Origin: Sulfuricurvum sp.
GTDB lineage: Bacteria; Campylobacterota; Campylobacteria; Campylobacterales; Sulfurimonadaceae
Assembly: GCA_024762585.1 (NCBI GenBank)
Contig: JANTHE010000008.1
Span: 1-32,801, forward strand
Length of the DNA stretch: 32,801 nucleotides
Direction: 5' to 3'
Shown in pieces: positions 20,625-27,911 of the stretch. How positions within the stretch are numbered: position 1 is the stretch's first letter; every line of letters starts with the position of its first letter. The position numbers and the translations under genes are program-made. Under the pieces are notes generated by a model. It worked only from the letters and a program-made list of their open reading frames with translations, did not search any database and was not told where the DNA came from.

Positions 20625-20651
20625 AAACGCCAAAGGGGGAAAGCCCCTCTA
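20625..20651 (-). terminator. Terminator-like hairpin after arginine kinase, relic of the dispersed repeat
   Basis: The minus strand folds AGAGGGG (20650-20644) with CCCCUUU (20638-20632) around CUUUC, and GGCGUUUU follows. The arginine kinase stop codon is partly in the stem. The plus strand, CGCCAAAGGGGGAAAGCCCCTCT, strongly resembles the first hairpin of the repeats at 22774 and 27705, so this may be a degenerate or captured copy acting as a terminator between convergent operons. Confidence 0.5.
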
Positions 20652-21677
20652 AAGCGCCTTCTCCGCCGCGATCAGCGCACTCACGCCGTCATACATATCC
20701 TGCACCGCCTGCACCTCGGTGATGCCCAGGCGGCGGCGGTTGCTGATGTCATAGACGCCGCCTTCACTTTCGCTGTGCTCGCCGTGGATGCCGCGAATCT
20801 GCAGGTGGTACTTCTCCGTAATCGCCTTGAACGCATCCATATCCCGGGCCAGTTTCGGCAGCGCGATATGCACGCTCGCGCGCATCGCCGTTCCCAGGTT
20901 GGTCGGACAGCTGGTGATGTAGCCCAGATGCTCCGAGAAGGCAAACGGCACTTTCTCGCCGATGGCATTGATGGCGGTGACCAGACGCGTAAAGACCTCT
21001 TTGATATCGCCACCAGGCTGCATCGAGATGATGCGCATCTCATCCTCTTCATTCACCCAGACCAGGAAGGTCTTGTCATGGTTGTGATAGATCCCCCGCC
21101 CTTCGGGCCAGTCGCGGTTGAGTCCTGCAGCTTCCAGGAAACGATCCCCCTCTTTAAAGAGGAAATGGTCTTTGATGAGCTGCTCCTGCACACTTTTGCT
21201 CATGCCCAATAGCGGGTAATAGGTGCCCTCCAGAGCTCCGGTCATGGACTCCAAACCTTCAACCACGCTTGCTTCGACCTCGTTGCGCTGCGACTTGGAA
21301 ATGGCGGGCCCCAACGGCAGTCCGGCGACGTTGCGCCCCACACGAATACGCGTAGAAAGGATAAACTCACCCTCCGGATCGGGGTTGGGAGCATTGAGAT
21401 GATCGGGATTGAGATCACTTTGATGCTTTTGCTCTTTGCCAAACCCGTGATACGCCTCGATGATCGGGTCGAACAGCGGGGCGAAAAGCGTATAGGACTC
21501 CTCGTCACCCGCATAGACACCGATTCCGCTGTCGGGATTGACGACACCGGAATTGATCGCCTGCTCCAGGGTAAAACCGTTGGCGGTCTTTTTGTCTTTG
21601 AGTGCTTCGAACACCTCGGGGGTTAGAAAACGGCACAGCATAGAGGTGCAGTCGCTTGGGAATGTCGGGTAAGTCAT
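20649..21677 (-). CDS. Arginine kinase (ATP:guanidino phosphotransferase, phosphagen kinase)
   Basis: The 342-aa product is a full-length phosphagen kinase. It transfers phosphate reversibly between ATP and arginine, buffering ATP as phosphoarginine. Every key site known from Limulus arginine kinase is present: specificity loop PDSGIGVYAGDEESY (S50-Y55), nucleotide-binding STRIRVGRN, NEEDEMRIISMQ with catalytic E211 and R215, SCPTNLGTAMRASVH with the reactive C257, and RGIHGEHSESEGG with catalytic E300. The N-terminal helical domain is also present, so this is not the bacterial McsB type, which lacks it. ATG 21677 has AAGGAG upstream and overlaps the small ORF before it. It ends the argB operon, which supplies its substrate pathway. 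Phosphagen kinases are patchy in bacteria and thought to be acquired from animals or protists; a few are known in sulfur-oxidising Campylobacterota. Confidence 0.95.
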   Translation of the reverse strand: MTYPTFPSDCTSMLCRFLTPEVFEALKDKKTANGFTLEQAINSGVVNPDSGIGVYAGDEESYTLFAPLFDPIIEAYHGFGKEQKHQSDLNPDHLNAPNPDPEGEFILSTRIRVGRNVAGLPLGPAISKSQRNEVEASVVEGLESMTGALEGTYYPLLGMSKSVQEQLIKDHFLFKEGDRFLEAAGLNRDWPEGRGIYHNHDKTFLVWVNEEDEMRIISMQPGGDIKEVFTRLVTAINAIGEKVPFAFSEHLGYITSCPTNLGTAMRASVHIALPKLARDMDAFKAITEKYHLQIRGIHGEHSESEGGVYDISNRRRLGITEVQAVQDMYDGVSALIAAEKAL

Positions 21678-21919
21678 GATTTCTCCTTAAAATGAAATTG
21701 GGCGCTCCGCAGGTAGTTTCCTAAGGTGCCCTTTGGCCACCGCGTGGCAAGATAGGCTTCAAACGTGTCAAACTCCGGTCGGTATAGCTGCTGGGACTCT
21801 ATGAGCTCCAGGGCGCGATGCAGCTTCCAAAGATGACCGAGTTCGACGTCGACGACCGCTTCGCACTGGCGCAGCAGTAACGCATCGGTATCGGGCAGGG
21901 GTTCGGGACGATGGCTCAT
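21674..21919 (-). CDS. Small conserved-looking protein between argB and arginine kinase
   Basis: This 81-aa ORF overlaps both neighbours by 4 bp (ATGA at each end), and the arginine kinase ribosome-binding site lies in its last codons. Such tight coupling argues that it is real. It is acidic at the N-terminus (PLPDTDALLLRQCEAVVDVE) with helical predicted segments. The stretch FDTFEAYLATRWPKGTLGNY weakly resembles a short motif (FxxFxxYlxxrW) in some phage- and regulator-type helix-turn-helix proteins. I do not recognise a family. It might tune or scaffold the two kinases; that is speculation. A GGTGATC site precedes its ATG. Confidence 0.7.
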   Translation of the reverse strand: MSHRPEPLPDTDALLLRQCEAVVDVELGHLWKLHRALELIESQQLYRPEFDTFEAYLATRWPKGTLGNYLRSAQFHFKEKS

Positions 21920-22767
21920 GGCTTGATCACCGTACCGACGCCTTCACTGGTAAAGATCTCCAGCAGCAGGGCGTGTTCGATCCGCCCGTCGATGATGTGT
22001 GCTTTTTTCACCCCGCCTTTAACGGCGTGCAGGCACGCTTCGACCTTGGGGATCATCCCGCCCGCGATCACTCCCGCCTTGCGCAGGGTCTCGATCTCCT
22101 GTTCGTTCAGCGTATGGGCAAACGCGCCATCCGCACGCTTGACACCCGGTGTATCGGTCATAAAAATGATCTTTCGCGCCCCCAGTGATGCAGCGATATA
22201 CCCCGCGGCGGTATCGGCATTGATATTGAACCCCGGGTGGTCACCCGAACCGGCACTTCCGATCGGTGCAATGACGGGAATAAACCGTTCAGCGATCAGG
22301 TTGCGGATCACGCTTTCGTCAATGGCGGTAATCTTTCCCACAAAGCCGTACTTCTCAAAATCGACCGGCTCGGCATGGATCATGCCCGCATCTTTGCCGC
22401 TGACCCCGATCGCCTTGGCGCCGTGCAGGTTCAACAGTGCCGTGATCTCCTTGTTGATCGAGCCCGAAAGTACCATTTCGACCACTTCCATTACCTGCGC
22501 ATCCGTCACCCGCAGTCCGTCGACGAAATGTGATCCGATCTGCAGCCGATCAAGCATCTCACCGATCGCATTCCCCCCGCCGTGCACGATCACCGGCTTG
22601 ATGCCGACAAGGTACATCAAGATGATATCGCGGGCGAATTTCTCCTTGAGCACGGGCGAGGTCTGCGCCGAACCGCCATACTTGATGACAAAAATTTCAT
22701 CTTTATATTTCAAAATATAGGGCAGTGCATCCAGCAGTACCCCGACCTGTTCGATCTTTGCTTTCAT
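21916..22767 (-). CDS. argB: N-acetylglutamate kinase ArgB, arginine-sensitive type
   Basis: The 283-aa product phosphorylates N-acetyl-L-glutamate, the second step of arginine synthesis. It shows FVIKYGGSAQ (nucleotide site), VIVHGGGNAIGEML (substrate loop), GFNINADTAAGYIA and MTDTPGV. The N-terminal extension with LLDALPYILKYKDE is the kinked helix that in Pseudomonas and Thermotoga enzymes forms the hexamer and confers arginine feedback inhibition, and the tail LLLEIFTSEGVGTVI fits that class. Its ATG at 22767 follows TAAGGAAAAAA, which begins directly where a repeat hairpin ends. It leads the argB > orf81 > arginine kinase set. Confidence 0.95.
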   Translation of the reverse strand: MKAKIEQVGVLLDALPYILKYKDEIFVIKYGGSAQTSPVLKEKFARDIILMYLVGIKPVIVHGGGNAIGEMLDRLQIGSHFVDGLRVTDAQVMEVVEMVLSGSINKEITALLNLHGAKAIGVSGKDAGMIHAEPVDFEKYGFVGKITAIDESVIRNLIAERFIPVIAPIGSAGSGDHPGFNINADTAAGYIAASLGARKIIFMTDTPGVKRADGAFAHTLNEQEIETLRKAGVIAGGMIPKVEACLHAVKGGVKKAHIIDGRIEHALLLEIFTSEGVGTVIKP

Positions 22768-22773
22768 TTTTTT

Positions 22774-22866
22774 CCTTACACGCCAAAGGAGCGAAGCCCC
22801 TTTGGCTACGTTAACACTGGGTTTGCTTCGGCAGCAGGCCCACGCGCCCTTGGCGCTTTTGATTAT
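22774..22866. repeat. Intercistronic hairpin repeat, copy 1
   Basis: A 93-bp unit. Hairpin A (22782-22806): GCCAAAGGAGC, loop GAA, GCCCCTTTGGC, 11 bp with one G.U in the minus-strand RNA. A middle segment CTACGTTAACACTGGGTTTG leads to a TTCG mini-loop, then hairpin B (22844-22856): GCGCC, CTT, GGCGC, then TTTT. It lies directly upstream of argB: hairpin A ends about 8 nt before the argB ribosome-binding site. It differs from copy 5 at only a few positions. Confidence 0.85.
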
Positions 22867-23006
22867 CCTTACACGTCAAAGGAGCGAAGCCCCTTTGACT
22901 GCGCTAACGCTGAGTTCTCCAACGACGCGTCATTTAGTGCCTCACTTGCACTGCCCTTTAGCGCTTGTCGGCGGAGAGCCCGCGCGCCCTTGGCGCTTTT
23001 GGTTAT
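22867..23006. repeat. Intercistronic hairpin repeat, copy 2 (long arm)
   Basis: A 140-bp unit in tandem with copy 1. Hairpin A is GTCAAAGGAGC/GCCCCTTTGAC: the outer C-G of copy 1 is T-A here, a compensatory pair. The middle is longer (about 47 bp inserted) and is bounded by TTCTCC and GGAGAG, which can pair. It ends with the same GCGCC-CTT-GGCGC-TTTT hairpin B. Confidence 0.85.
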
Positions 23007-23051
23007 CCTTACACGTCAAAGGAGCGAAGCCCCTTTGACTGCACTAACGCC
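23007..23051. repeat. Intercistronic hairpin repeat, copy 3 (truncated)
   Basis: Only the first 45 bp, hairpin A of the copy 2 type (T-A outer pair) plus CTGCACTAACGCC, ending about 10 bp from the stop codon of the CxxC-protein gene. The middle arm and hairpin B are missing. Confidence 0.8.
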
Positions 23052-23060
23052 ATTCACGTA

Positions 23061-23468
23061 TTAGTTGACGCCCAGCTCTATCAGCTGCACGCCGAATCGT
23101 GCGGCCATGCCTGCGAGTGTCGTGTCTTCACACAGCGAACCGCAGGTCATTGTCGCAATACTGAGACCGTACGCCATGGCGTTGATGAGCAGCGAACGCT
23201 CCTGCCGTGAGAGCGGACTGTTTTCGGGTTTGACGTAAAACAGCACGCCCGGCCTGTCCTCGGAGACCCGATACGCTTCATCAATACTGCAAAACGTCTG
23301 AACAGGACCATAGGGCAGCGTCGTGCTCTGCACTCTGCTCCCCTCTGCGTCCGGCCGAACAACACTGACGACATGAAACCGCTCAAACACTTTCGCCGCC
23401 GCATCGACTATGGCCTGCTCTTGCATTTTGGCACACTGTTCACAATAAACGATCGCATCATTTCGCAT
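23061..23468 (-). CDS. Hypothetical protein with N-terminal CxxC
   Basis: The product (135 aa from ATG 23468) is not one I recognise. It begins MRNDAIVYCEQCAKMQEQ, with C9 and C12 as a possible metal or redox pair, and has alternating beta/alpha predicted elements (VFERFHVVSVVRPDA, GVLFYVKPENSP, MAARFGVQLIELG). Two further Cys lie near 110-114 (MTCGSLCED), so four cysteines could bind one metal. An upstream extension to 23609 is rejected, because it reads as noise and ATG 23468 has GGAAAA 7 nt upstream. It lies between the K+ channel genes and the repeat cluster before argB, all on the same strand. Confidence 0.7.
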   Translation of the reverse strand: MRNDAIVYCEQCAKMQEQAIVDAAAKVFERFHVVSVVRPDAEGSRVQSTTLPYGPVQTFCSIDEAYRVSEDRPGVLFYVKPENSPLSRQERSLLINAMAYGLSIATMTCGSLCEDTTLAGMAARFGVQLIELGVN

Positions 23469-23532
23469 AGTATTTTCCGCTTGTCTGTGGGTTGATGAAA
23501 TTTTACGGGGATAAAATGTAACCTTTGTGAAA

Positions 23533-24237
23533 TCAAGCCGTTTCGCACCGTTTTTTAAGTGCTTCGAGCTCTTTGAGCCTGCCGACAACCACCAGGGTAT
23601 CTCCCGCATCGAGCTTGTGGTCGACCCCTTTGCTCAGATAGATAAGCTCCTCTCCGAGCTCTTTGTCGATAATGGCGATCACCACCACCCCCTTGGAGCG
23701 AAAGTCGATCTCACCGACCCGCTTGCCGTCAAAACAGCTGGCCGGCTCAATGACAATCTCGGCGATTTTCAGGTCGTTTCGATCGTAAATGATCGTATTG
23801 AGCGCTTCGCGCACGGCGGGGCGTGTGAGCGCGTTGACCATCTGCTCGACCGACGCGTCATAGATATTGATCACGGTATCTGCCCCGGCGAAACGGAGCT
23901 TGCGGGTATTCTCCTCGGAGTTGCTGAGCGCGACGATGGTGGCGTCATGATAAAGCTCGCGCAGGCTCAGTACCAAAAAGAGATTGTTGGCCGTATGGTC
24001 CATGGCACAGTAGAGCAGGTGGCGGCCGGGGTCGATGCCGAGTGCGCGGATGGAGTCGTTGTGCTTGGGATTGAACCGGCGTACATCCGTCACGCCGTCG
24101 TCCATGGCATCTGTGTGGTTTTGCTCAAGCATCGTCGCCACCCGGATACCGAAACCGTCATGTTTGAGCCTGGAATACATGGCGCGGCCGAATTTGCCGT
24201 AGCCAAAAAGAACAATCGCCTGTTTTCGCTCCATCAT
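23533..24237 (-). CDS. TrkA-like K+ channel regulatory protein (RCK N and C domains)
   Basis: The 234-aa product has a Rossmann nucleotide-binding domain (AIVLFGYGKFGRAMYSRL at about 6-23, then NNLFLVLSLRELY and GADTVINIYDAS) and a TrkA-C domain (about 155-225: IVIEPASCFDGKRVGEIDF and GDTLVVVGRLKELEAL). Such RCK subunits gate K+ channels and transporters in response to NAD(H), ATP/ADP or cyclic dinucleotides. Its ATG at 24237 shares a base with the channel stop (TGATG), so the two proteins are made together and probably assemble. The ligand cannot be read from sequence. Confidence 0.88.
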   Translation of the reverse strand: MMERKQAIVLFGYGKFGRAMYSRLKHDGFGIRVATMLEQNHTDAMDDGVTDVRRFNPKHNDSIRALGIDPGRHLLYCAMDHTANNLFLVLSLRELYHDATIVALSNSEENTRKLRFAGADTVINIYDASVEQMVNALTRPAVREALNTIIYDRNDLKIAEIVIEPASCFDGKRVGEIDFRSKGVVVIAIIDKELGEELIYLSKGVDHKLDAGDTLVVVGRLKELEALKKRCETA

Positions 24238-27688: not shown

Positions 27689-27704
27689 GTTTTACTCCTT
27701 ATAG

Positions 27705-27820
27705 TACGCCAAAGGAGCAAAGCCCCTCTGGCTGCGCTAACGCTGTGTTCTCCTCGGCGGAGGGCGCCCTGAAAGAAGTGCCCTTGGGGTGCCCACGCGC
27801 CCTTGGCGCTTTTGATTGAC
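27705..27820. repeat. Intercistronic hairpin repeat, copy 4
   Basis: A 116-bp unit. Hairpin A (27708-27732): GCCAAAGGAGC, loop AAA, GCCCCTCTGGC; the T-to-C change keeps pairing as G.U only in the minus-strand RNA. The middle arm contains TCTCC and GGAGG that can pair around CGGC, then sequence unlike the other copies. It ends with hairpin B GCGCC-CTT-GGCGC-TTTT. It lies directly before the ribosome-binding site of the histidine kinase gene. Confidence 0.85.
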
Positions 27821-27911
27821 TTTACACGCCAAAGGAGCAAAGCCCCTCTGGCTACGTTAACACTGGGTTTGCTTCGGCAGCAGGCCCGCGCGCCCTTGGC
27901 GCTTTTAAATA
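27821..27911. repeat. Intercistronic hairpin repeat, copy 5
   Basis: A 91-bp unit in tandem with copy 4 and nearly identical to copy 1, including the TTAACACTGGGTTTGC and TTCG parts and hairpin B. Hairpin A (27828-27852) has loop AAA and the CTCTGGC right arm. It ends 7 bp from the response regulator stop codon. Confidence 0.85.

Follow-up and report, generated by a model that had tools for sequence, protein, structure and literature searches.

A mobile repeat with a pseudoknotted core upstream of argB in Sulfuricurvum and in several families of Campylobacterota

The array upstream of argB and its fold

Three tandem repeats precede argB in a 32,801-nt stretch of Sulfuricurvum sp. DNA (contig JANTHE010000008.1, hereafter the window). 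Are they a leader of this gene or part of something larger? A preliminary description treated the repeat as an argB feature, but it proved to be a dispersed mobile family, present in both orientations and beside unrelated genes. The array is made up of members of a family of short mobile repeats (MITE/REP/ERIC-like) that is unnamed and restricted to Campylobacterota. The features of the window are as follows.

21916-22767, minus strand: argB (acetylglutamate kinase), the gene that follows the array in sense direction (TIGR00761, 252.5 bits, cut-off 151.3)
22772-22862, minus strand: copy 1 of the core, nearest argB (covariance model R1, 86.8 bits, E 1.9e-24)
22782-22806, minus strand: hairpin A of copy 1, GCCAAAGGGGC-TTC-GCTCCTTTGGC, with one G.U (sequence; covarying pairs)
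22806-22809, minus strand: GTAG tag directly 5' of hairpin A, its G being part of the outer hairpin A pair (sequence; YAG conserved)
22810-22817, minus strand: mini-hairpin GY(GTTA)RC, in copy 1 GTGTTAAC (Y-R pair counts in 205 copies)
22824-22836, minus strand: hairpin B, 4-bp stem TGCT/AGCA, loop GCCGA (covariation; pair counts)
22838-22840, minus strand: pseudoknot partner RGC (GGC in copy 1), pairing with GCC of loop B at 22830-22832 (R-Y counts in 205 copies)
22844-22856, minus strand: hairpin C, GCGCC-AAG-GGCGC (sequence; minimum-energy fold)
22865-23002, minus strand: copy 2, its hairpin B loop extended by a 47-nt insertion (R1, 66.4 bits, E 2.5e-18)
22921-22967, no strand assigned: the 47-nt insertion of copy 2, itself hairpin-forming (sequence)
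about 23005-23051, minus strand: copy 3, only the 3' part in the sense direction (GCGTTAGT-GCAG-hairpin A-CGT; R1, 25.0 bits, E 6e-6; sequence)
23061-23609, minus strand: upstream gene, with zero family matches when Pfam and NCBIfam were searched
27698-27788, minus strand: second copy of a second locus, in which an insertion separates hairpin C from hairpin B (R1, 75.9 bits; sequence)
27818-27908, minus strand: first copy of the second locus, between response regulator and CBS/histidine-kinase genes (R1, 86.0 bits)

By the covariance model the window has five copies, each on the minus strand (three before argB and two at the second locus, where copy 27698-27788 ends a little 5' of the SD and start of the kinase gene). 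Of the 91 sequences in the model, 90 come from other genomes and copy 1 is the 91st. A chance origin of the array is excluded by the E-value of copy 1 and the roughly 30 BLAST copies genome-wide. Start-to-start spacings are 93 and 140 nt. The sense strand of copy 1 reads toward argB and the CGT end of its core lies about 12 nt 5' of the argB ATG, while the sense-direction 5' end of copy 3 is missing just past the stop codon of the upstream gene. The three tandem copies were recovered by both sequence and covariance model, the third being truncated. The extra bases of copy 2, given earlier as about 47, number exactly 47; they lie in the hairpin B loop with the arms CTCC/GGAG intact, and a similar insert occupies the same position in L048 and L039. 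The exchange of the outer hairpin A pair was also as described (C-G in copy 1, T-A in copies 2 and 3). The 11-bp hairpin reported on the plus strand is shared by the copies, but there it has an A.C mismatch (GGAGC/GCCCC); on the minus strand it is fully paired with a G.U. On the plus strand, hairpin C of copy 1 is followed by TTTT and resembles a weak intrinsic terminator. A 160-codon plus-strand frame (22582-23064) across the array was taken as chance, as it overlaps argB in antisense and is broken by the 140-nt spacing. The window also contains, at 20649-21677, a complete gene for an arginine-kinase-like ATP:guanido phosphotransferase, a kind of gene unusual in bacteria.

In sense order, the core of about 80 nt consists of hairpin C, G-RGC-N, hairpin B (4 bp, loop GCYGA), AAC-NN-A, GY(GTTA)RC, G-YAG, hairpin A and CGT. 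Both hairpins named as the unit in the preliminary description are present, but the unit is longer, with a 5' hairpin C, a pseudoknot and the GTTA mini-hairpin. The predicted fold of copy 1 beats shuffled sequences (z -2.75) by a method that is blind to pseudoknots. When 19 pairs were compared in 91 sequences, 95.6 % of the pair cells were standard. The covariation score was 0.667, against 0.257 (SD 0.010) for shuffled sequences and at most 0.21 for slid pairings, and it comes from related sequences whose counts are not independent events. A covariance model and a covariation test across copies had been proposed at the outset, and excess covariation is what they gave.

Among changes from standard to wobble pairs, G.T outnumbers A.C by 119:13; one conserved G.U pair contributes 45 G.T cells, and without it the ratio is 74:12. 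This excess identifies the folded strand as the minus strand of the window, that is, the argB mRNA sense. RGC and GCY form a minimal H-type pseudoknot around hairpin B with loops of about 1 nt and 2 nt. Its variable R-Y pair is GC in 128 copies, AT in 70 and another combination in 7 (198 of 205 copies pair), and covariation is absent from a nested alternative pairing, R30-N50, in the 205 copies. The Y-R pair of the mini-hairpin, in 205 copies, is CG in 106, TA in 88, TG in 9 and CA in 2. YAG/GTAG before hairpin A is near-invariant in A1, the tag being partly in the search pattern. The invariance of the core as a whole is partly imposed in the same way, with hairpins A and C, the left arm of hairpin B and RGC lying outside the pattern.

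These comparisons of sequences indicate that the core fold is under selection as a single strand. The first proposal had been selection for RNA or cruciform structure. Covariation upholds the selected fold, but two points speak against a double-stranded cruciform: the asymmetry between G.T and A.C singles out one strand, and a cruciform would predict no pseudoknot. Length changes are confined to loops, as had been supposed, and the view that the array is not decayed coding sequence is supported. Three pairs of loci with alike flanks in different species of the window's genus (L046/L198, L190/L193 and L049/L176) have cores whose stems are different along their whole length, which could reflect either compensatory change in situ or the substitution of one copy for another.

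Spread and mobility of the family

The draft Sulfuricurvum genome of the window contains 38 copies by the model and about 30 by DNA search (BLAST). Seven other genomes of this genus were compared; six have 10-35 model matches and the seventh (G003) has 2. Two Sulfurospirillum genomes have 47 and 54. A degenerate core pattern matches at least 118 stretches of species-representative genomes, and the records listed belong to Sulfurospirillum, Sulfurovum, Sulfurimonas, Sulfuricurvum, Hydrogenimonas, Arcobacter and unplaced Campylobacterales/Campylobacterota, some of them under older labels (e.g. Helicobacteraceae or Epsilonproteobacteria); one MAG among the matches listed is labelled only 'Proteobacteria'. 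In a draw of 298 Campylobacterota genomes, matches were observed in 53, from four GTDB-like families, and most other families of the phylum in this draw gave zero. At least four Campylobacterota families have the repeat.

No Rfam family scored above its gathering threshold for the element (only tRNAs were found elsewhere in the loci, and a tfoR match with E 4.7 was considered chance), and no paper naming it was found in the published literature. The earlier statement that no named element matches it therefore agrees with both sources. In the viral collection (IMG/VR) one copy was found (L168:5713-5739), so that phages or prophages may carry the element; as this is the sole viral contig with a match, viral spread was not accepted as the explanation. 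Sulfurospirillum also carries a second, related type (L299:1492-1592, L291:1510-1590 and L296:1431-1518), which shares only the 3' half (GGTTAGCGTAG or CTAACGTAG, hairpin A and CGT) and has a distinct 5' half (CTGCCTCA..TGAGGCAAGCTTYAGT).

Mobility was observed when the element-bearing regions of one Sulfurospirillum genome (G241) were compared with 2.4 of the 3.03 Mb of another (G254), the two being about 95 % identical there. About ten element sites are common to both. Precise absences in G254, with their target duplications, were found for L240 (TAT), L243 (ATA), L249 (TTA), L258 (AAT) and L286 (TAAT), and less clean ones for L295, L251 and L298; at least five clean insertions, each with its target duplication of 3-4 bp, thus distinguish these close genomes. 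At one shared site (L285:1323-1430 and G254 219557-222538), the G241 copy has a 17-nt extension of hairpin A which the G254 copy lacks, indicating a loop-length change at a fixed site.

The Sulfurospirillum insert (124-137 nt) consists of the core, a 5' hairpin AGACTTCTTGCAAAA..TTTTGCAAGAAG and a 3' hairpin AGAGTTCT..AGAACTCT, and shows the marks of an IS5-type MITE (short, no ORF, TIR-like ends, TSD and insertion polymorphism). G254 also contains an IS5-type element of about 0.9 kb with ends AGACTTCTTTCATAACCC, a 3-bp AAT duplication and a frameshifted DDE_Tnp_4/HTH_Tnp_4 transposase. Nine terminal bases (AGACTTCTT) and the duplication length match between this IS and the repeat within the one genus, and it is a candidate mobiliser of the family. 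The clean insertions with duplication, together with the IS5-type-like ends, show that the family is mobile.

MITE interiors normally drift. The repeat resembles IS5-family MITEs in its AGACTTCTT ends and 3-bp TSD, as in the G254 DDE_Tnp_4 element, but across the family it is the interior that is conserved, and the ends vary from lineage to lineage; in the genome of the window, several copies have other outer inverted repeats (GGTGCCCTACAATGCCATTAAGCTAAGA). As this is the reverse of ordinary MITE decay, the core itself appears to be selected. Freshly inserted copies retain the fold in both orientations. A replication-strand bias (117:71 with the fork, the origin being assumed at base 1) was rejected as a sign of single-strand transposition, since leading-strand gene bias by itself could produce about as much.

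Gene context and recurrent operon sites

The copies are intergenic. At the named loci, 48 are sense and 28 antisense between co-directional genes, 20 lie in convergent and 10 in divergent gaps; in a wider set, with orthologous and tandem copies included, the numbers are 74, 51, 37 and 24. Divergent gaps are the least used class, and the orientation bias between co-directional genes is modest in both sets (48:28 and 74:51). In G254, sense copies score no better than antisense copies, which are equally intact, so landing is not restricted to sense. Many genes (e.g. tsaD and prfA) have copies in both orientations, as expected from independent insertions, and recurrence near a gene can therefore be independent insertion. 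One copy (L026:1501-1600) lies directly 5' of an apparent 16S rRNA gene in the window's genome.

Sense copies recur at the grpE-dnaK junction (six loci: L086, L089, L128, L159, L189 and L194), at nifS-nifU (five: L055, L079, L088, L112 and L184) and at rplJ-rplL (two: L076 and L113), in Sulfurimonas-type genomes of several species. By coordinates, grpE is followed by a sense copy in at least six genomes (G002, G005, G017, G183, G307 and G338; G002 and G005 are the source genomes of L194 and L189) from several GTDB genera, and its presence there is patchy inside genera among the matches listed. Judged by eye, hairpin A stems are common to several species (ATGG..CAT at dnaK, GTAG..TAC at nifU), which favours inheritance over repeated insertion. 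Some of the sense copies at these junctions end in a fixed module of hairpins E/F and SD (TTCCCTT, an AT-rich hairpin and AAGGA), which lies directly 3' of the core and just before ATG in 12 of 12 cases; the loci scanned were chosen for containing the core, so that this is linkage there and not genome-wide exclusivity.

Explanations and significance

We favour, at about even confidence, the reading that the repeat is mobile, that its single-strand fold is under selection and that its sense copies serve as intercistronic or 5'UTR RNA elements. The mobile-repeat part of this reading is well supported, and the RNA function of sense copies is what we infer from sequence patterns. IS transposases recognising lineage-specific ends (IS5-type in Sulfurospirillum) would move copies in trans, and sense copies landing between co-directional genes would sometimes be kept. 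The transcribed core would then be a stable RNA obstacle or a processing or leader element. Compared with the upstream cistron, the downstream one would be expressed more strongly or be more stable, either because decay in the 5'-3' direction is blocked or because the downstream gene gains an SD and a protected leader of its own. RNA is preferred because the retained copies are sense and stand before genes whose products (DnaK and L7/L12) the cell requires in excess. Copies before dnaK, nifU and rplL are probably RNA control elements, and argB would be one such retained site, probably a young one. A further-reaching form, tentative and somewhat doubtful, is that the pseudoknotted RNA module is portable cargo: a sense landing would supply a leader that lifts the downstream gene, for example as an exonuclease-resistant RNA blocking RNase J, and operon stoichiometry would be tuned by transposition phylum-wide. 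The leader would be the core with the fixed hairpins and SD, lifting dnaK over grpE and L7/L12 over L10.

The main rival to an RNA role is that the fold is selected as ssDNA. The element would be a large REP-like substrate, its GTAG and imperfect hairpin A read by a Y1 (HUH, RAYT-type) transposase, and RNA would be irrelevant. The strong DNA mini-hairpins (GTTA and TTT loops) are equally compatible with a ssDNA role, fresh insertions retain the fold whichever way they face, and Y1_Tnp occurs in 13 of 13 Sulfurospirillum genomes tested. RAYTs usually sit among their own REPs, but none of 33 Y1_Tnp loci has a core within about 1.5 kb, and the complete genomes G005-G007, with 24-31 copies, have zero Y1_Tnp matches. 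Short target duplications and IS5-like ends are also unexpected of Y1 single-strand transposition. The hallmark of GTAG REPs is a GTAG tag that abuts, on the 5' side, an imperfect palindrome in which a G.T is conserved, and GTAG repeats are listed for Sulfurovum sp. NBC37-1 (PMC3733652). The tag is present, yet a RAYT/REP assignment was rejected given the missing co-location and the absence of Y1_Tnp from complete genomes rich in copies, and we consider the ssDNA reading unlikely. An integron attC site was also rejected, the GTTA core being, by eye, unlike the R' and R'' boxes.

That the repeat is an ordinary MITE with a functionless core, its stems covarying merely through common descent and quasi-palindrome correction (templated repair of hairpin mismatches), is less probable again. 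It would account for the TIR-like ends, the short TSD and the intactness of G254 copies independent of context, and palindromes are prone to templated correction. R-Y covariation in the pseudoknot is beyond the reach of such correction, however, the one-strand G.T preference is unexplained by it, and the unpaired core is constant across several families while outer sequences differ between lineages. Least probable, and in our view very improbable, is a riboswitch or leader of argB and other genes that senses one metabolite or global signal. SD and ATG do lie close behind sense copies, sometimes with the fixed two-hairpin platform, but the neighbouring genes lack a common pathway, many copies are antisense or between convergent genes, and the element jumps. 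The copies do not follow the riboswitch pattern of sense placement upstream of functionally coherent genes, and the element is not an argB riboswitch.

Compared with known systems, the repeat shares with GTAG-tagged REPs/REPINs and their RAYTs the tag, an imperfect palindrome with G.T, intergenic location, multiple copies and tandem groups. GTAG REPs are single stem-loops of 20-40 bp with the tag 5' of an imperfect palindrome (Di Nocera 2013, PMC3733652). In contrast, the element has a core of about 80 nt (conserved unit about 80-90 nt) with three hairpins, a pseudoknot and a mini-hairpin, besides extra terminal hairpins and a short target duplication, and several host genomes are without RAYT. 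ERIC, NEMIS/Correia and RUP are short non-autonomous elements with structured RNA, intergenic and found in operons, and are thought to affect mRNA fate in one orientation. They resemble the repeat as short mobile elements with strong RNA structure in intergenic and operon positions; the repeat differs in a core with conserved unpaired bases and a pseudoknot, common to several families of the phylum, and in its recurrence at grpE-dnaK and nifS-nifU in several species. Bacterial MITEs that act through RNA are already a known kind of element (reviewed in PMC2229807). With viral xrRNA the likeness is an analogy of function: a compact pseudoknotted fold able in principle to stop a 5'-3' exonuclease, with no sequence or Rfam relation.

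Three points are new: the pseudoknotted core common to several families, its absence from Rfam and operon junctions at which sense copies turn up repeatedly. The preliminary description had missed the pseudoknot, the mobility and the spread across Campylobacterota. A multi-copy structured element thus lies outside Rfam in a large bacterial phylum, with covariation fixing its pseudoknot and folded strand from sequence alone, and the annotation is corrected in that the repeats are not argB-specific leaders. MITE mobility and cis-acting RNA, usually studied apart, would be joined in one element. The hosts include many sulfur- and hydrogen-oxidising relatives of Campylobacter with dozens of copies, and the occurrence of one fold with different stems at dnaK, nifU, rplL and argB provides natural replicas, a testbed for mobile repeats as possible suppliers of operon control.
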